Shown here: piece by piece, positions 20,401 through 41,458 of the stretch
How the letters are laid out: every line of letters begins with the position of its first letter
Numbering within the stretch: the first letter of the stretch is position 1
NCBI GenBank assembly: GCA_021797915.1
Contig: JAJZYT010000002.1
Location: forward strand, 1-64,000
Direction: 5' to 3'
Origin: Thermoplasmata archaeon
GTDB taxonomy: Archaea > Thermoplasmatota > Thermoplasmata > Thermoplasmatales > GCA-001856825
DNA length: 64,000 nt
Notes under the pieces: generated by a model
Database searches by the model: none
The model's input: the letters and a program-made list of their open reading frames with translations, nothing else
Told to the model about the DNA's origin: nothing
Translations under genes and position numbers: made by a program

Positions 20401-21330
20401 CTAGGCTTTGCTCTCTTCCATCACCCTAGAGTTGTGTGCATCTATGAGGAGAAAGATGGATTCGTCCTTGTGTTCAAACTGAAGCGACCACACTGGAATG
20501 TGGACGAGGTACATGTCGGCAATGTCCACGTTCACGTTCGCTGAAAGGAAACCATGAACATTTCTCTGAAGCCTCCTGATCTCCCACTGCTGAATTCTGA
20601 GCTTTCCCTCCATTCTTGCTTTTTCTTCCCCCATCGTTCCGTTCAAAAGCTTTATTGGCCCGCTCACGTCGTCCTGTCCTATCGGTCTCTTGTCGGAGAG
20701 ATTGAAAACATAATCAGGTGGTTGGTACTGGTTCATGTTCTCTATTGCAATTACTGGATAATTCACCTCGTTTACATCGTTTCCTGATTCCACAATAGTC
20801 TGGACATTAATCGTTGGGCCACCAAAACCACCTCTTCCCCCCATTCCAGCTCCAACAAATCCTCCGGGACTGACCTGCTCCTTCTTGAACTGATACTGTG
20901 CGGAGTATCCTGCGTCCATTATCCAGTAAGGCAGGTAGTTAAGATCCGACTTCTTGAGTGTGCTCTTCTCGAACAGATGCCTGTGAAATATGCTATTGTC
21001 CAGAAATGCCTTTGCCACTAACTCAGCCTGGTCCTTCATCTGGACTTTGATGTCGAGAATGTAGTGTTTTTCGACTTTTGTCCAACCCAGTGACCCCAAA
21101 GAAATTGAGGTGCCGCAATATGTACAGACAACCATTGCCTCTCCGGGTGCAGGGTTGAGCGGCGCTCCGCAATTAGGACATTTCATGTCCTTCAGGACTG
21201 CCTGCTGGTCCTGGGAACTGTTCCCTCCCTGTTTTGTAGTTTGAGACTGACTCCCCTGCTGAGGCGCTCCACATTTAGGACAAAAGTCCGAATCATCTGG
21301 AATAGATGCGCCGCATTTCTTGCAGTACAT
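20401..21330 (-). CDS. Double zinc-ribbon protein (YdjG-like), partner of SPFH protein
   Basis: The 309-residue protein begins with a short zinc ribbon (CKKCGA...CPKCGA, residues 3-22) and, after a Gln/Ser linker, a second ribbon (CPNCGAPL...CTYCGT, about 50-75). The remainder is a soluble alpha/beta domain with LPYWIMDAGY and a C-terminal HIPVWSLQFEHKDESIF element resembling the bacterial zinc-ribbon proteins encoded beside SPFH genes (Bacillus YdjG type, from memory). A Gly/Phe-rich loop lies near residues 165-180. No TM helix is visible, unlike YdjG. The gene follows the SPFH gene by 1 bp. Function is unproven. Confidence 0.7.
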   Translation of the reverse strand: MYCKKCGASIPDDSDFCPKCGAPQQGSQSQTTKQGGNSSQDQQAVLKDMKCPNCGAPLNPAPGEAMVVCTYCGTSISLGSLGWTKVEKHYILDIKVQMKDQAELVAKAFLDNSIFHRHLFEKSTLKKSDLNYLPYWIMDAGYSAQYQFKKEQVSPGGFVGAGMGGRGGFGGPTINVQTIVESGNDVNEVNYPVIAIENMNQYQPPDYVFNLSDKRPIGQDDVSGPIKLLNGTMGEEKARMEGKLRIQQWEIRRLQRNVHGFLSANVNVDIADMYLVHIPVWSLQFEHKDESIFLLIDAHNSRVMEESKA

Positions 21331-21331
21331 T

Positions 21332-22489
21332 TCAGTTCACCTTCTCGCCACAATTCGGACAGAACTTTGCTCCTGGCTGTACTTCCGTCCCACACTTCGG
21401 ACATTTGGTCGTGATGGATTTCCCACACTCTGGACAGAACTTTGATGTCTTTGGTATGTTCTTGCCACAGTAAGGACATTTCATCTGCTCTTCAGATGAA
21501 AAATCATATCCACACGATGGGCAGAACTTTACGTTCTCGTCCACGTCGGTTTGACATTTGGGGCACTTCTTCACTCTCTTTTCTGCAGGAGGCTGCTGTT
21601 GGTTCATCCCCTGAGCTATGTTTGATGACATTGGATATGCCATTCCTGCTCCAGCTCCCAACCCCATTCCGAGACCTATTCCTGCTCCAGCAGTTCCACC
21701 AGGGTTCTTCGCTGCATCCACCATGGCCTGACCAGCCTGGAACTGCAGATAGTTCGCACCCACTGCCTTCATGCTCGAACGGGTATCTATTGCCTTCTGG
21801 ACCTCATCCGGAAGCGATATCGTCAATCCGGAAATCTTGTTTAACTCTATTCCGTATTGATCGAAAGCAGCCTTTGCGCCAGCCAAAACAGCTTCCTCTG
21901 TGTTCATCAAGTTGGATGGGAGATCGAGCACCGATATTCCCTGGTCTTTCATCTTTCCAAGCACGTTGTAGATAAGCATTACGACCTGGTCCCTTATCCT
22001 GTCTTCCACCTGTGCAGTAGTCTCGACATTGAAAGTACCCACAAACTGATTTATGAATATTGAAGGGTCCGAAATCCGGTACCTCATATCACCAAAGAGC
22101 CTGAGCATGACGATATCGAAGTCCTTGTCCCTGAATGCGTAAGGTTCCTTGGATCCAAATTTTCCGTCGATGATCCTTCTCTGCAGGTAATACACGTAGG
22201 CCTGCTGCTGGATACCGGTCAATAGTTTTACGAGACCCCCAATGATTGGTGCGTTGAGATCGGTCAGTGCATATCTTCCAGGCTTGTCGATATAGAATAT
22301 TGCCTTTCCATCCCTGAAAAAAACAGCCGTTTCGTCTTCCCTGACGACTGCATTGTCGTTCAACTTGATCAGTCTGGGAACCTTCCACATTATGTTTCCT
22401 TCTTTGAACTGATCCTCCCATTCAAAAGTAGTCGAACCAAATGCGCTTCCACCACTTGGTGGTACTCCACCCCTCTTTCCAAATGGCAT
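21332..22489 (-). CDS. SPFH-domain protein with three C-terminal zinc ribbons (YdjI-like)
   Basis: Residues about 25-240 form an SPFH/virion-core-type domain (FEWEDQFKEGNIMWKVP, DETAVFFRDGKA, DFDIVMLRLFGDMRYRISDP). A Gly/Ala/Met-rich linker (about 260-310) follows, then three consecutive zinc ribbons, each CPxCxx-FCPxCG, to the end. There is no TM segment. SPFH proteins scaffold membrane microdomains, and bacterial YdjI acts in a membrane-stress complex; a comparable role here is inference. The gene abuts its upstream and downstream neighbours with 0 and 1 bp between them, so the three form one operon. Confidence 0.82.
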   Translation of the reverse strand: MPFGKRGGVPPSGGSAFGSTTFEWEDQFKEGNIMWKVPRLIKLNDNAVVREDETAVFFRDGKAIFYIDKPGRYALTDLNAPIIGGLVKLLTGIQQQAYVYYLQRRIIDGKFGSKEPYAFRDKDFDIVMLRLFGDMRYRISDPSIFINQFVGTFNVETTAQVEDRIRDQVVMLIYNVLGKMKDQGISVLDLPSNLMNTEEAVLAGAKAAFDQYGIELNKISGLTISLPDEVQKAIDTRSSMKAVGANYLQFQAGQAMVDAAKNPGGTAGAGIGLGMGLGAGAGMAYPMSSNIAQGMNQQQPPAEKRVKKCPKCQTDVDENVKFCPSCGYDFSSEEQMKCPYCGKNIPKTSKFCPECGKSITTKCPKCGTEVQPGAKFCPNCGEKVN

Positions 22490-23011
22490 TTAGACTCCCC
22501 CATAGAGAAGCGTTTCCCTGCTGCTGTTCAGATCTGAAATTGCCGAAATGATGTTGTTGATTCCCGCAATCCCGTCTTGATTGACATTTCCAGATGAGCA
22601 ATTCTGCACGAACGAGTTCACTCCCTTCTGAAGATTCTGTATCTGGTCGAATATCTGCATATCCAGATCATACAGTGCTGAAATCTTCTTTGCATCCACC
22701 TTGATTGGTGCGGATATTCCAGAATACCCTGCCCCATGGTGTTTGACAGCCTCTGCGACAGTCTGGATCCTGGACCTGAGGACCCCAATCGGCTCGAGTC
22801 CCTTGAACTGGCCGCTGCTAACGAGTGAACCTTCGCCAGTTTTCAGATTCGATATAACGTCCAGCATTTTCTTGTACAATTCGTCCTTCAAAATAATATC
22901 AGCATCACGCAAGTCTTCGTTTATCCTATACCCGTGGTAGCCAGGGAATATGAGTTGGATCTTTTTGATTACTCCTCTGTCCTCTACGACCTGATCCCTT
23001 AAGTCGGTCAT
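22490..23011 (-). CDS. Helical protein, first gene of the SPFH cassette
   Basis: The 173-residue protein is mainly alpha-helical, with no TM segment and only one cysteine. The segment HHGAGYSGISAPIKV (about residues 90-104) followed by an LYDLDMQIFDQI helix resembles uncharacterised proteins that I recall next to bacterial SPFH (YdjI) genes; this match is from memory and unverified. It is directly followed by the SPFH gene, with its TAA adjacent to the next ATG. A scaffold or adaptor role is possible, but nothing in the sequence shows an enzymatic activity. Confidence 0.65.
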   Translation of the reverse strand: MTDLRDQVVEDRGVIKKIQLIFPGYHGYRINEDLRDADIILKDELYKKMLDVISNLKTGEGSLVSSGQFKGLEPIGVLRSRIQTVAEAVKHHGAGYSGISAPIKVDAKKISALYDLDMQIFDQIQNLQKGVNSFVQNCSSGNVNQDGIAGINNIISAISDLNSSRETLLYGGV

Positions 23012-25092: not shown

Positions 25093-25530
25093 TTACTGAA
25101 TATATTTTGACAGATATAGAGAGAACAGGAGTACAACGAATACTGTTGCTGCAATGACCACGAATGTTCTGTCCCTCTCCCTTGCATAGATCAAAACCTG
25201 AATGAAAATTCTCCCGAACGGAGAGAGTATCAACAGTAGAACTCCAAGCTGAATGATTGCAAATGACTTGAACTTGAAAACTCCGTATGTGATTGTACCC
25301 AGGTAGTGGGGAAAGACAGCAGTATTTGGTCCATATGACTGCAACAGTATATCTATTGGCACCTTCAGATAACCGGTAGAGTCTGTTGCAAGGTATGTTA
25401 TGAGACCTATCACAATCACAGATAGGGATATGATTACACTCCATATGAGATAAAACGAGAGGACCTTGGAGGATATTTTCTCCTCTTCTTCCTTTTCTTT
25501 TTCAAACAGTCTTTCTTTGCCAGTACTCAT
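25093..25530 (-). CDS. DUF1634 membrane protein
   Basis: The 145-residue protein has a charged N-terminus (Glu/Lys-rich, residues 5-20) and three hydrophobic segments at about 25-48, 90-110 and 120-140. The pattern PHYLGTITYGVFKFKSFAIIQLGVLLLILSP-like region before the third helix fits DUF1634. The gene overlaps the upstream TauE/SafE gene by 4 bp. DUF1634 genes are commonly found next to TauE/SafE permeases, supporting a shared transport function, probably as an accessory subunit. Confidence 0.78.
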   Translation of the reverse strand: MSTGKERLFEKEKEEEEKISSKVLSFYLIWSVIISLSVIVIGLITYLATDSTGYLKVPIDILLQSYGPNTAVFPHYLGTITYGVFKFKSFAIIQLGVLLLILSPFGRIFIQVLIYARERDRTFVVIAATVFVVLLFSLYLSKYIQ

Positions 25531-26417
25531 AGGTGCAACCCCATCCCGCCTATTAGCAACACCCCACTCCGCAACATTTCTATCGCAACAACGAGAATTA
25601 CCGCCGCAAACAGGATCCTTACTGTTCTACCCCTGACTTTCATAAGGAGCCGCGACCCAACTAATGCGCCGATGAGGACTCCAATTGCAACGGGGGCTGC
25701 AATATAGGGATTGACGTCGCCGTTGAAGAAATATATTCCAGCACTGGCGGCCGCTGTCATCCCGATCATGAAGTTAGAAGTCGTAGTGGATACCTTGATT
25801 GGTAGCTTCATGAAGAGATCCATGGCAATGACCTTGAAGACTCCTGAACCAATTCCGAGTAATCCCGACAGTATTCCGGCAACGAACATCATTGCTGAAC
25901 CACTCTTGACCCCCGAAACGTTGTAGTTCACTTCTTTATCCAATTCGAGATTGTGATAGTGGGATTGGAGCGACATTCTTTCGGCGATTGGGTCGTTCTT
26001 GATATTTTCCGGCTGGTTGACCTCTCCAATCTTCTTGATGAGTGGAAGGACAGAAATCAAAAGAACAATTCCAAAAATAAGGTATATTGCCGCTGGGTTT
26101 TTGATGCGCAGTCCCAAGAATGCACCAACTATTGCACCCGTAGTCGTGAACAAGACTAGGAAAGTACCCACTCTAATGTTTGAAATCTTGTCCTTCACAT
26201 ACGCAGACGCTGACCCGCTTGACGTTGCTATAACAGAAACGATGGATGCTCCTATTGCAAGATAGATGGGCACGTGAAAATAAAGAGTCAGGAATGGAAC
26301 TATTAGTACTCCTCCACCCAATCCAGCCATTGAACCTATGATGCCCGCAAAAACTGATGCAACTAATATTAAAATGAGGTACAGAACTAAATCAAACACT
26401 CGGGTTAATCCAAACAC
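25527..26417 (-). CDS. TauE/SafE-family sulfite/organosulfonate-type exporter
   Basis: The 296-residue protein has about eight TM helices in two homologous halves, with the family repeats GSMAGLGGGVLIVPFL (about residues 27-42) and GILSGLLGIGSGVFKV (about 180-195). A hydrophilic loop of about 35 residues separates the halves. TauE/SafE members move sulfite, sulfonates or other small anions; the substrate here is unknown. GTG 26417 is the annotated start, and GTG 26399 is a close alternative given a TATA-like AAATTAAT near 26429. Confidence 0.82.
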   Translation of the reverse strand: MFGLTRVFDLVLYLILILVASVFAGIIGSMAGLGGGVLIVPFLTLYFHVPIYLAIGASIVSVIATSSGSASAYVKDKISNIRVGTFLVLFTTTGAIVGAFLGLRIKNPAAIYLIFGIVLLISVLPLIKKIGEVNQPENIKNDPIAERMSLQSHYHNLELDKEVNYNVSGVKSGSAMMFVAGILSGLLGIGSGVFKVIAMDLFMKLPIKVSTTTSNFMIGMTAAASAGIYFFNGDVNPYIAAPVAIGVLIGALVGSRLLMKVRGRTVRILFAAVILVVAIEMLRSGVLLIGGMGLHL

Positions 26418-40253: not shown

Positions 40254-41429
40254 ATGAGTGAAATTCTTCTGAAGGGAATCGGTATAAGGAAGTACTTCCC
40301 AATAAGGGGTGGCGTGTCTGGCAGAACGCTTGGCTATGTCCATGCGGTAGATGATGTCAATATTACCATTTACAAGGGCGAAACGATTGGAGTTGTGGGG
40401 GAATCTGGATGCGGAAAGACGACCCTTGGCAGAGTAGTTCTAGATCTCATAGATCCTACTACGGGAGCCCTGTTCTACAAACCCAATGAATCAGAAATGA
40501 GTCAGCTAGAACAGCTCTATTCCGAGTTGACGTCTGGAGGAGCGAGGGAACTCAAGAAAGAAGAGAAAAAGATACTGAACACCACGAAGGACAACATATA
40601 CAAGAGCAGGAGAAAGAAGAAGGATTTCAGGAGCAGAGTCCAGATAGTATTCCAGGATCCAGTCTCTTCTCTTGACCCAAGAATGCTCATAAAAGACGTG
40701 ATATTCGAGCCCATAAAAATAAACGGGATTCCGGTAGAGGGAGAAGATGACAACGGTAAACAGAAAAGGGTCAGGCTGAGAGGCGATGCTGCGACAAAGT
40801 ACATCCTCGACATAGTTACTGAAATGGGACTCAATGAGGACCACCTCTTCAGGTTCCCCCACGAATTCAGTGGCGGTCAGAGACAGAGAATCGCTATCGC
40901 AAGAGCGATAGCGGTGAAACCCGAGTTCATCGTCCTGGATGAGCCAACTTCCGCGCTAGACGTTTCAGTTCAGGCACAGATACTCAGTCTCCTGAAGAAC
41001 CTGCAGCAGAAGTACAACGTGGCGTACATGTTCATCACACACAACCTTGCGGTCATAAGGGCGGTCAGCACCCGGGTCATAGTGATGTACCTTGGGAAGA
41101 TAGTGGAGGAAGCACTCACTGACGAGTTGTTCGAGTATCCGATCCATCCATATACTCAGGCACTCATCAGTGCAATACCTGTCCCGGACCCCAACTTTAA
41201 GAGATCTAGGATAGTCCTCAGCGGGGATGTACCTTCACCGGCCAATCCGCCATCAGGCTGCAGGTTCCACACCAGGTGCAGATTTGCAAAGGAGATTTGC
41301 AGCACCGAGGAACCCAAGCTCAAGGAGATAAGGACGGGACACGTAGTGGCGTGCCACTTTGCAGAGGATATACTCAAGACCGAATCTGAACGCACCGGAA
41401 TAAAGAAGATTTCCGAGATCGCCATTTAG
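40254..41429 (+). CDS. Peptide ABC transporter ATPase (DppF type) with Lys-rich insertion
   Basis: The 391-residue ATPase has Walker A GESGCGKT (49-56), Q-loop Gln134 in IVFQDP, signature FSGGQRQRI, Walker B VLDEPTSALD, and the C-terminal CRFHTRCRFAKEIC motif of the peptide transporter class. Between Walker A and the Q-loop there is a Lys/Glu-rich extension of about 25-30 residues (about 92-128) compared with typical DppF. The ATG directly abuts the DppD-type stop codon. Confidence 0.88.
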   Translation: MSEILLKGIGIRKYFPIRGGVSGRTLGYVHAVDDVNITIYKGETIGVVGESGCGKTTLGRVVLDLIDPTTGALFYKPNESEMSQLEQLYSELTSGGARELKKEEKKILNTTKDNIYKSRRKKKDFRSRVQIVFQDPVSSLDPRMLIKDVIFEPIKINGIPVEGEDDNGKQKRVRLRGDAATKYILDIVTEMGLNEDHLFRFPHEFSGGQRQRIAIARAIAVKPEFIVLDEPTSALDVSVQAQILSLLKNLQQKYNVAYMFITHNLAVIRAVSTRVIVMYLGKIVEEALTDELFEYPIHPYTQALISAIPVPDPNFKRSRIVLSGDVPSPANPPSGCRFHTRCRFAKEICSTEEPKLKEIRTGHVVACHFAEDILKTESERTGIKKISEIAI

Positions 41430-41458
41430 CGGGGTCACCCTCGACCGGGAGGAAACAG

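Follow-up and report, generated by a model that had tools for sequence, protein, structure and literature searches.

A conserved three-gene cassette in the window (the whole 64,000-nucleotide stretch of DNA analysed, from an uncultured Thermoplasmata archaeon) is, on balance, probably a co-transcribed euryarchaeal variant of the YdjI/YdjG membrane-surveillance module, one that does without PspA and TPM and includes a new helical subunit. All three genes were called as open reading frames on the minus strand of 20401-23011 and comprise ORF1, a helical protein of 173 aa (22490..23011), an SPFH protein of 385 aa (21332..22489, PF13421) and ORF3, a zinc-ribbon protein of 309 aa (20401..21330, PF13240), with coordinates that leave intergenic gaps of 0 and 1 bp and agree with the tight packing reported in a preliminary description of this DNA. 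Pfam PF13240 stretches placed three zinc ribbons in the SPFH protein and two in ORF3, the same five over two proteins that had been predicted, and Kyte-Doolittle profiles (19-residue windows, threshold 1.6) revealed no TM segment in ORF1, the SPFH protein or ORF3 (maxima 0.56, 1.23 and 1.16), as the earlier reading had also held. The cassette lies between a divergent malic enzyme gene and an AlkZ-like gene. Comparison with locus L003 gave dN/dS values of 0.048, 0.038 and 0.077 for ORF1, SPFH and ORF3, which indicates constraint, and because these values are low and the gene order recurs in distant genomes, the cassette is not a chance arrangement. No paper describing it was found in the open-access literature searched. 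Elsewhere in the window (25093-26417), a DUF1634 gene and a TauE/SafE gene overlap over several nucleotides and likely form a two-gene transporter unit.

Evaluating gene order across genomes, we found ORF1 in 32 of the 61 genomes of the order and SPFH matches beyond the zinc ribbons in the identical 32, with neither gene in the other 29 (a raw SPFH tally of 56/61 includes matches to zinc ribbons only). With roughly every second genome of the order lacking it, the cassette is not generally essential. Across the phylum, an ORF1 profile matched 95 of 292 Thermoplasmatota genomes, and ORF1 lay within 3 kb, always upstream and on the same strand, at 75 of 83 strong Band_7_1 matches, leaving 8 without a nearby ORF1; strong here means at least 60 bits, the 83 matches being spread over 80 genomes, out of 188 in which the domain matched at any strength, and weaker partial matches being uncounted. 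A genome-collection scan yielded 80 named loci, every one of them titled as archaeal. They come from Thermoplasmata, Methanoperedens, ANME-2, Methanomicrobium, Methanocorpusculum, Methanocalculaceae and related taxa, and so reach beyond Thermoplasmatota into Methanomicrobiales and other lineages. Antisense artefact ORFs that appeared in ORF clusters were disregarded. Setting aside three at contig ends left 77 testable loci, of which 76 place SPFH immediately behind ORF1 (in the remaining one, L153, the sequence stops 261 bp past ORF1) and 59 have an ORF3-like gene no more than 5 kb away. No ORF3-like gene passed the screen in the four loci checked in family f8 (L082-L085). The preliminary description had proposed such a neighbourhood survey and staked its reading on the gene order, which these counts show to be conserved.

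The sequence identifies the SPFH protein as a YdjI-class Band_7_1 protein. Its Band_7_1 domain (aa 40-241; PF13421, 116.9 bits against a cut-off of 24, E 1.2e-33) is followed by a Gly-rich linker at about aa 264-290, seen in alignment A3, and by the three zinc ribbons at aa 307-383 (three PF13240 stretches), such that it has the YdjI-class traits of a ribbon tail after a low-complexity linker and no TM anchor. Ribbons 1 and 2 are invariant and ribbon 3 nearly so in the 23 SPFH proteins of A3, from which near-identical, cut or broken sequences (L019) were excluded. The excluded gene, from genome G006 (L019 1501-2604), has a broken reading frame in that assembly.

ORF1 carries the motifs KKIQLxxPGYxGYR..EDLRxAD and HHxxGYSGIS, has no Pfam match above cut-off and was modelled by AF2 as a four-helix bundle (pLDDT 82.7, pTM 0.81). 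Foldseek searches of the first and third proteins, a check suggested earlier, were run and returned no match at E ≤0.001 for either, and the top VIA match of ORF1, IncA (Z 12.2, rmsd 3.5, 138 aligned), is uninformative because many unrelated bundles score alongside it. ORF1 is distantly related to the NCBIfam family LIMLP_15305 (NF047596), which it resembles over its full length at E 1.8e-7 and 31.2 bits, well under that family's cut-off of 210, and the same profile found nothing above cut-off in the 292 Thermoplasmatota genomes. From its name we take this family to be one of Leptospira. An origin of ORF1 as a derived PspA/ESCRT-III protein was rejected (A4 compared with the ESCRT-III profile A6 only, probability 0.15, E 0.38), as were a TelA-like identity, given the absence of a Pfam match, and an amphipathic N-terminal helix, since 238 of 500 shuffles reach the moment of the window protein.

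Relatives of ORF1 also occur in other arrangements. In family f7 (L076 4833-5543; L077 4531-5217) ORF1 has a zinc ribbon fused to its N-terminus, a hint that contact between ribbons may help the proteins meet. The window's own genome holds a stand-alone ORF1 paralogue of about 170-200 aa without SPFH (L199 5955-6566; contig C24, about 40972-41454), which is kept in related genomes (L113, L205) and adjoins a gene that presumably encodes ribosomal protein L15e. Genome G020 has a second ORF1-SPFH pair (L111 5103-6457) close to ribosomal protein genes, in which SPFH-b is 287 aa long and has no zinc-ribbon tail; the gene after it is, as we read it, NMD3-like.

ORF3 begins with its two zinc ribbons (aa 2-23 and 50-74, two PF13240 stretches), all eight Cys of which are invariant in 21 aligned sequences; alignment A1 excluded L004, and A2 excluded L004, at a contig end, together with L006 and L019, where the ORF3 reading opens at residue 49. 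After the ribbons, the AF2 model (pLDDT 81.4) shows a putative YpeB/PepSY-like domain with a Gly-rich loop, whose top VIA match is 5boi, the YpeB C-terminal domain (Z 7.2, rmsd 2.2, 67 aligned, 18% identity), a local match that at Z <8 is middling and that leads an amine oxidase and further chains by no more than one Z unit. PepSY also matched a paralogue weakly (E 4.4e-4, under cut-off), and the best match of the second domain to a YpeB C-terminal/PepSY fold is suggestive only. Pore-toxin rows topping the ORF3 Foldseek output were dismissed as noise (probability ≤0.05, TM about 0.1). Elsewhere, Kyte-Doolittle profiles place a TM segment in the C-terminal half of 83 of 150 ORF3-like ORFs (these 150, and the 112 SPFH ORFs in the same count, include duplicate contigs), and many lineages have two or three ORF3 paralogues in place of one, two of them with C-terminal TM segments.

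These features connect the cassette to the pspA-ydjGHI operon of Bacillus subtilis. Excerpts of the published accounts (PMC8581546, PMC11237479) give YdjI a low-complexity linker, a C-terminal zinc ribbon and no TM segment, as in the window SPFH protein, which differs in carrying three ribbons. Passages of Scholz et al. 2021 (PMC8581546) further state that YdjI, lacking a membrane anchor, reaches the membrane via YdjG and YdjH and that PspA is not recruited to the membrane without YdjI. According to Ravi et al. 2024 (PMC11237479), YdjG combines a pair of zinc ribbons with a YpeB-related domain and a TM segment; set against that description ORF3 is alike in its ribbons and may also share the YpeB-related domain, whereas in the window's family it has no TM segment. 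The archaeal cassette further differs from the Bacillus operon in the helical protein upstream of SPFH and in having neither PspA above cut-off nor TPM (YdjH) in the 61 genomes of the order.

The SPFH/zinc-ribbon pairing also extends to bacteria. A tblastn search of plasmids with the archaeal ORF3-like protein of L122 returned 10 records, all with a Band_7_1-type SPFH match within about 2 kb, and annotated adjacency of SPFH and ORF3-like genes was seen in Vibrio, Comamonas, Paracoccus and Tsukamurella plasmids, which makes this pair common to bacteria and archaea. A plasmid search with ORF1 (L055) gave no match, such that the bacterial pairs resemble the cassette in SPFH adjoining an ORF3-like gene and differ in their other partners and in the absence of an ORF1 match. 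The resemblance to YdjI/YdjG first noted in the preliminary description is thus reinforced by Band_7_1, the zinc ribbons, the YpeB C-terminal match of ORF3 and the bacterial pairs. Other bacterial partner sets were seen as well. On a Paracoccus plasmid (L215 1269-5987), consecutive genes encode a toxic anion resistance protein, DUF2927, SPFH and zinc-ribbon proteins, possibly another such set, and a bacterial Band_7_1 SPFH gene heads an annotated cluster of DUF4178, DUF350, polyamine aminopropyltransferase and SpeD (L063 5968-12726). Another (L062 5908-11329) heads what we read as a polyamine-synthesis cluster, and in Novosphingobium the SPFH partners are polyamine genes, unlike in the archaeal cassette.

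Searches for the known partners bore out the earlier statement that PspA and TPM are absent nearby. PspA (PF04012) was above cut-off in none of the 61 order genomes, the window's own included, and in 3 of 292 genomes of the phylum, and TPM (PF04536) was found in none of the 61, with both searches giving matches in control genomes. Outside the phylum the cassette can coexist with PspA, which was above cut-off in 5 of 19 cassette genomes tested, 17 of them from records mostly titled Methanoperedens, ANME-2 and Methanomicrobiales kin and the other 2 Thermoplasmata and Methanomassiliicoccales. For ESCRT-III, neither PF03357 nor the tailored A6 profile matched in the window's own genome, which is about 89% complete, and the tailored profile matched 11 of the 61 order genomes, 2 of them with the cassette (G031, G055). 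A mutual exclusion of cassette and ESCRT-III, hinted at by PF03357 (eight genomes, all without the cassette), was refuted by those two genomes. In G031, about 5.6 kb separate the cassette from the ESCRT-III gene (L226 6359-6955) on its downstream side, a single case.

Membrane genes, by comparison, are frequently linked to the operon outside the window. Membrane partners were counted at those 51 of the 80 named loci whose flanks were long enough in both directions, and 43 of them have a membrane protein in or beside the operon, either an upstream multi-span gene, an ORF3-like C-terminal TM segment or both. At 45 of 111 loci ORF1 is preceded by a small gene (100-200 aa, four hydrophobic segments) whose end lies no more than 300 bp upstream, an arrangement that only 1 of 419 control genes taken from these loci shows; this set counts some contigs twice (phylum and named sets), and the named set by itself gives 31/73. 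The four-span proteins fall into two similarity groups, and their profile matches the relatives f4, f3 and f5 and nothing in the window or in the fetched f1 and f6 loci. A subset of loci instead has a two-span ORF with a sub-threshold LiaI-LiaF-like TM match (24.3 bits versus a cut-off of 27, the better of two tested). The idea of a distinct soluble system, raised in the preliminary description, consequently fails for the family, given these linked membrane proteins and a YdjI that itself has no anchor. Because YdjI is described in part of PMC8581546 as equally anchorless, the missing SPFH TM segment marks no difference from Bacillus. The window carries a minimal version without linked membrane partners, and this soluble trio is either a reduction specific to its lineage or works with partners that are not linked to it.

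Taken as a membrane-surveillance module, the cassette would work as follows. The YdjI-like SPFH protein would oligomerise on the cytoplasmic membrane face, its zinc-ribbon tail and the ribbons of ORF3 holding it and the YdjG-like ORF3 together, with the PepSY/YpeB-like part of ORF3 as a possible adaptor or sensor surface. The ORF1 four-helix bundle, as a near-obligate SPFH partner, might regulate or perform the membrane-side work, taking the place that PspA has in the Bacillus operon; a PspA-like role for ORF1 is conjectured solely from where its gene lies. Other lineages would tether the assembly by TM segments of ORF3 paralogues and/or the small four-span protein, and in the window's family and f6, where linked anchors are missing, the complex may be peripheral or anchored by an unlinked protein. 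The domains, the shared 32 of 61 genomes, both adjacency counts, the bacterial SPFH/zinc-ribbon pairs, the frequent membrane partners and the published YdjI/YdjG biology speak for this reading. Speaking against it are the window proteins without TM segments or a linked membrane gene, the middling, local fold match of ORF3 and generic bundle of ORF1, the unsupported amphipathic helix, the Band_7_1 matches without ORF1 and f8 loci without an ORF3-like gene, and the 29 of 61 order genomes that lack the cassette.

Nucleic acids and proteins can both be ligands of zinc ribbons, and the three window proteins without TM segments would suit a soluble system, a scaffold or something chaperone-like with no link to membranes, in which ribbons and an SPFH ring bring order to nucleic acids or to proteins of the cytosol; the ORF1-SPFH-b pair beside the NMD3-like gene and the stand-alone ORF1 paralogue beside the L15e-like gene point the same way. 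We nevertheless consider this unlikely, as most of the named loci counted include a membrane protein and as YdjI, according to passages of PMC8581546, is recruited to the membrane without a TM segment of its own. More improbable still is that the SPFH module serves a minimal ESCRT-III/Vps4 machinery encoded elsewhere, by analogy with YdjI-PspA and with the Methanobacteriales Meth_adaptin ESCRT loci, which carry SPFH, coiled coil and zinc ribbon in the part of PMC11188069 that describes them. Those loci share with the cassette an archaeal SPFH protein with a zinc ribbon, and the ESCRT-III gene of G031 fits the same idea, but the ESCRT-III context was not seen here: neither ESCRT-III nor PspA matched in the flanking sequence fetched for the 80 named loci, the own genome has none with either profile, only 2 of the order's 32 cassette genomes have ESCRT-III, and within f6 there was no association with the cassette (Fisher p 0.64).

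SPFH proteins regulate proteases in other systems, and an M48 (HtpX-like) protease gene occurs in 8 of the 80 named loci (e.g. L148 9519-10520). A membrane proteolysis module regulated as in HflKC-FtsH, with ORF1 and ORF3 presenting substrates to a membrane protease, nonetheless strikes us as very unlikely, since all 8 of these genes run on the strand opposite to the cassette and the window has no M48 match.

Extending the membrane-surveillance reading, we offer more tentatively, and with doubt, that ORF1 represents a new class of membrane-guarding proteins, dependent on SPFH and replacing PspA, which with the four-span partner and zinc-ribbon/PepSY adaptors would make up a PspA- and ESCRT-independent envelope-stress system across the phylum Thermoplasmatota and several methanogen and methanotroph lineages, the window holding its minimal, anchor-free form. 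The operon provides a concrete conserved gene set for testing how euryarchaea that lack walls or live in acid, and in which PspA is not detectable and ESCRT-III mostly not detected, maintain the integrity of their membranes. YdjI-class SPFH proteins thereby gain a near-obligate helical partner in ORF1, archaeal and bacterial SPFH/zinc-ribbon pairs are joined into one widespread module, and the cassette may show a different archaeal way of guarding membranes.
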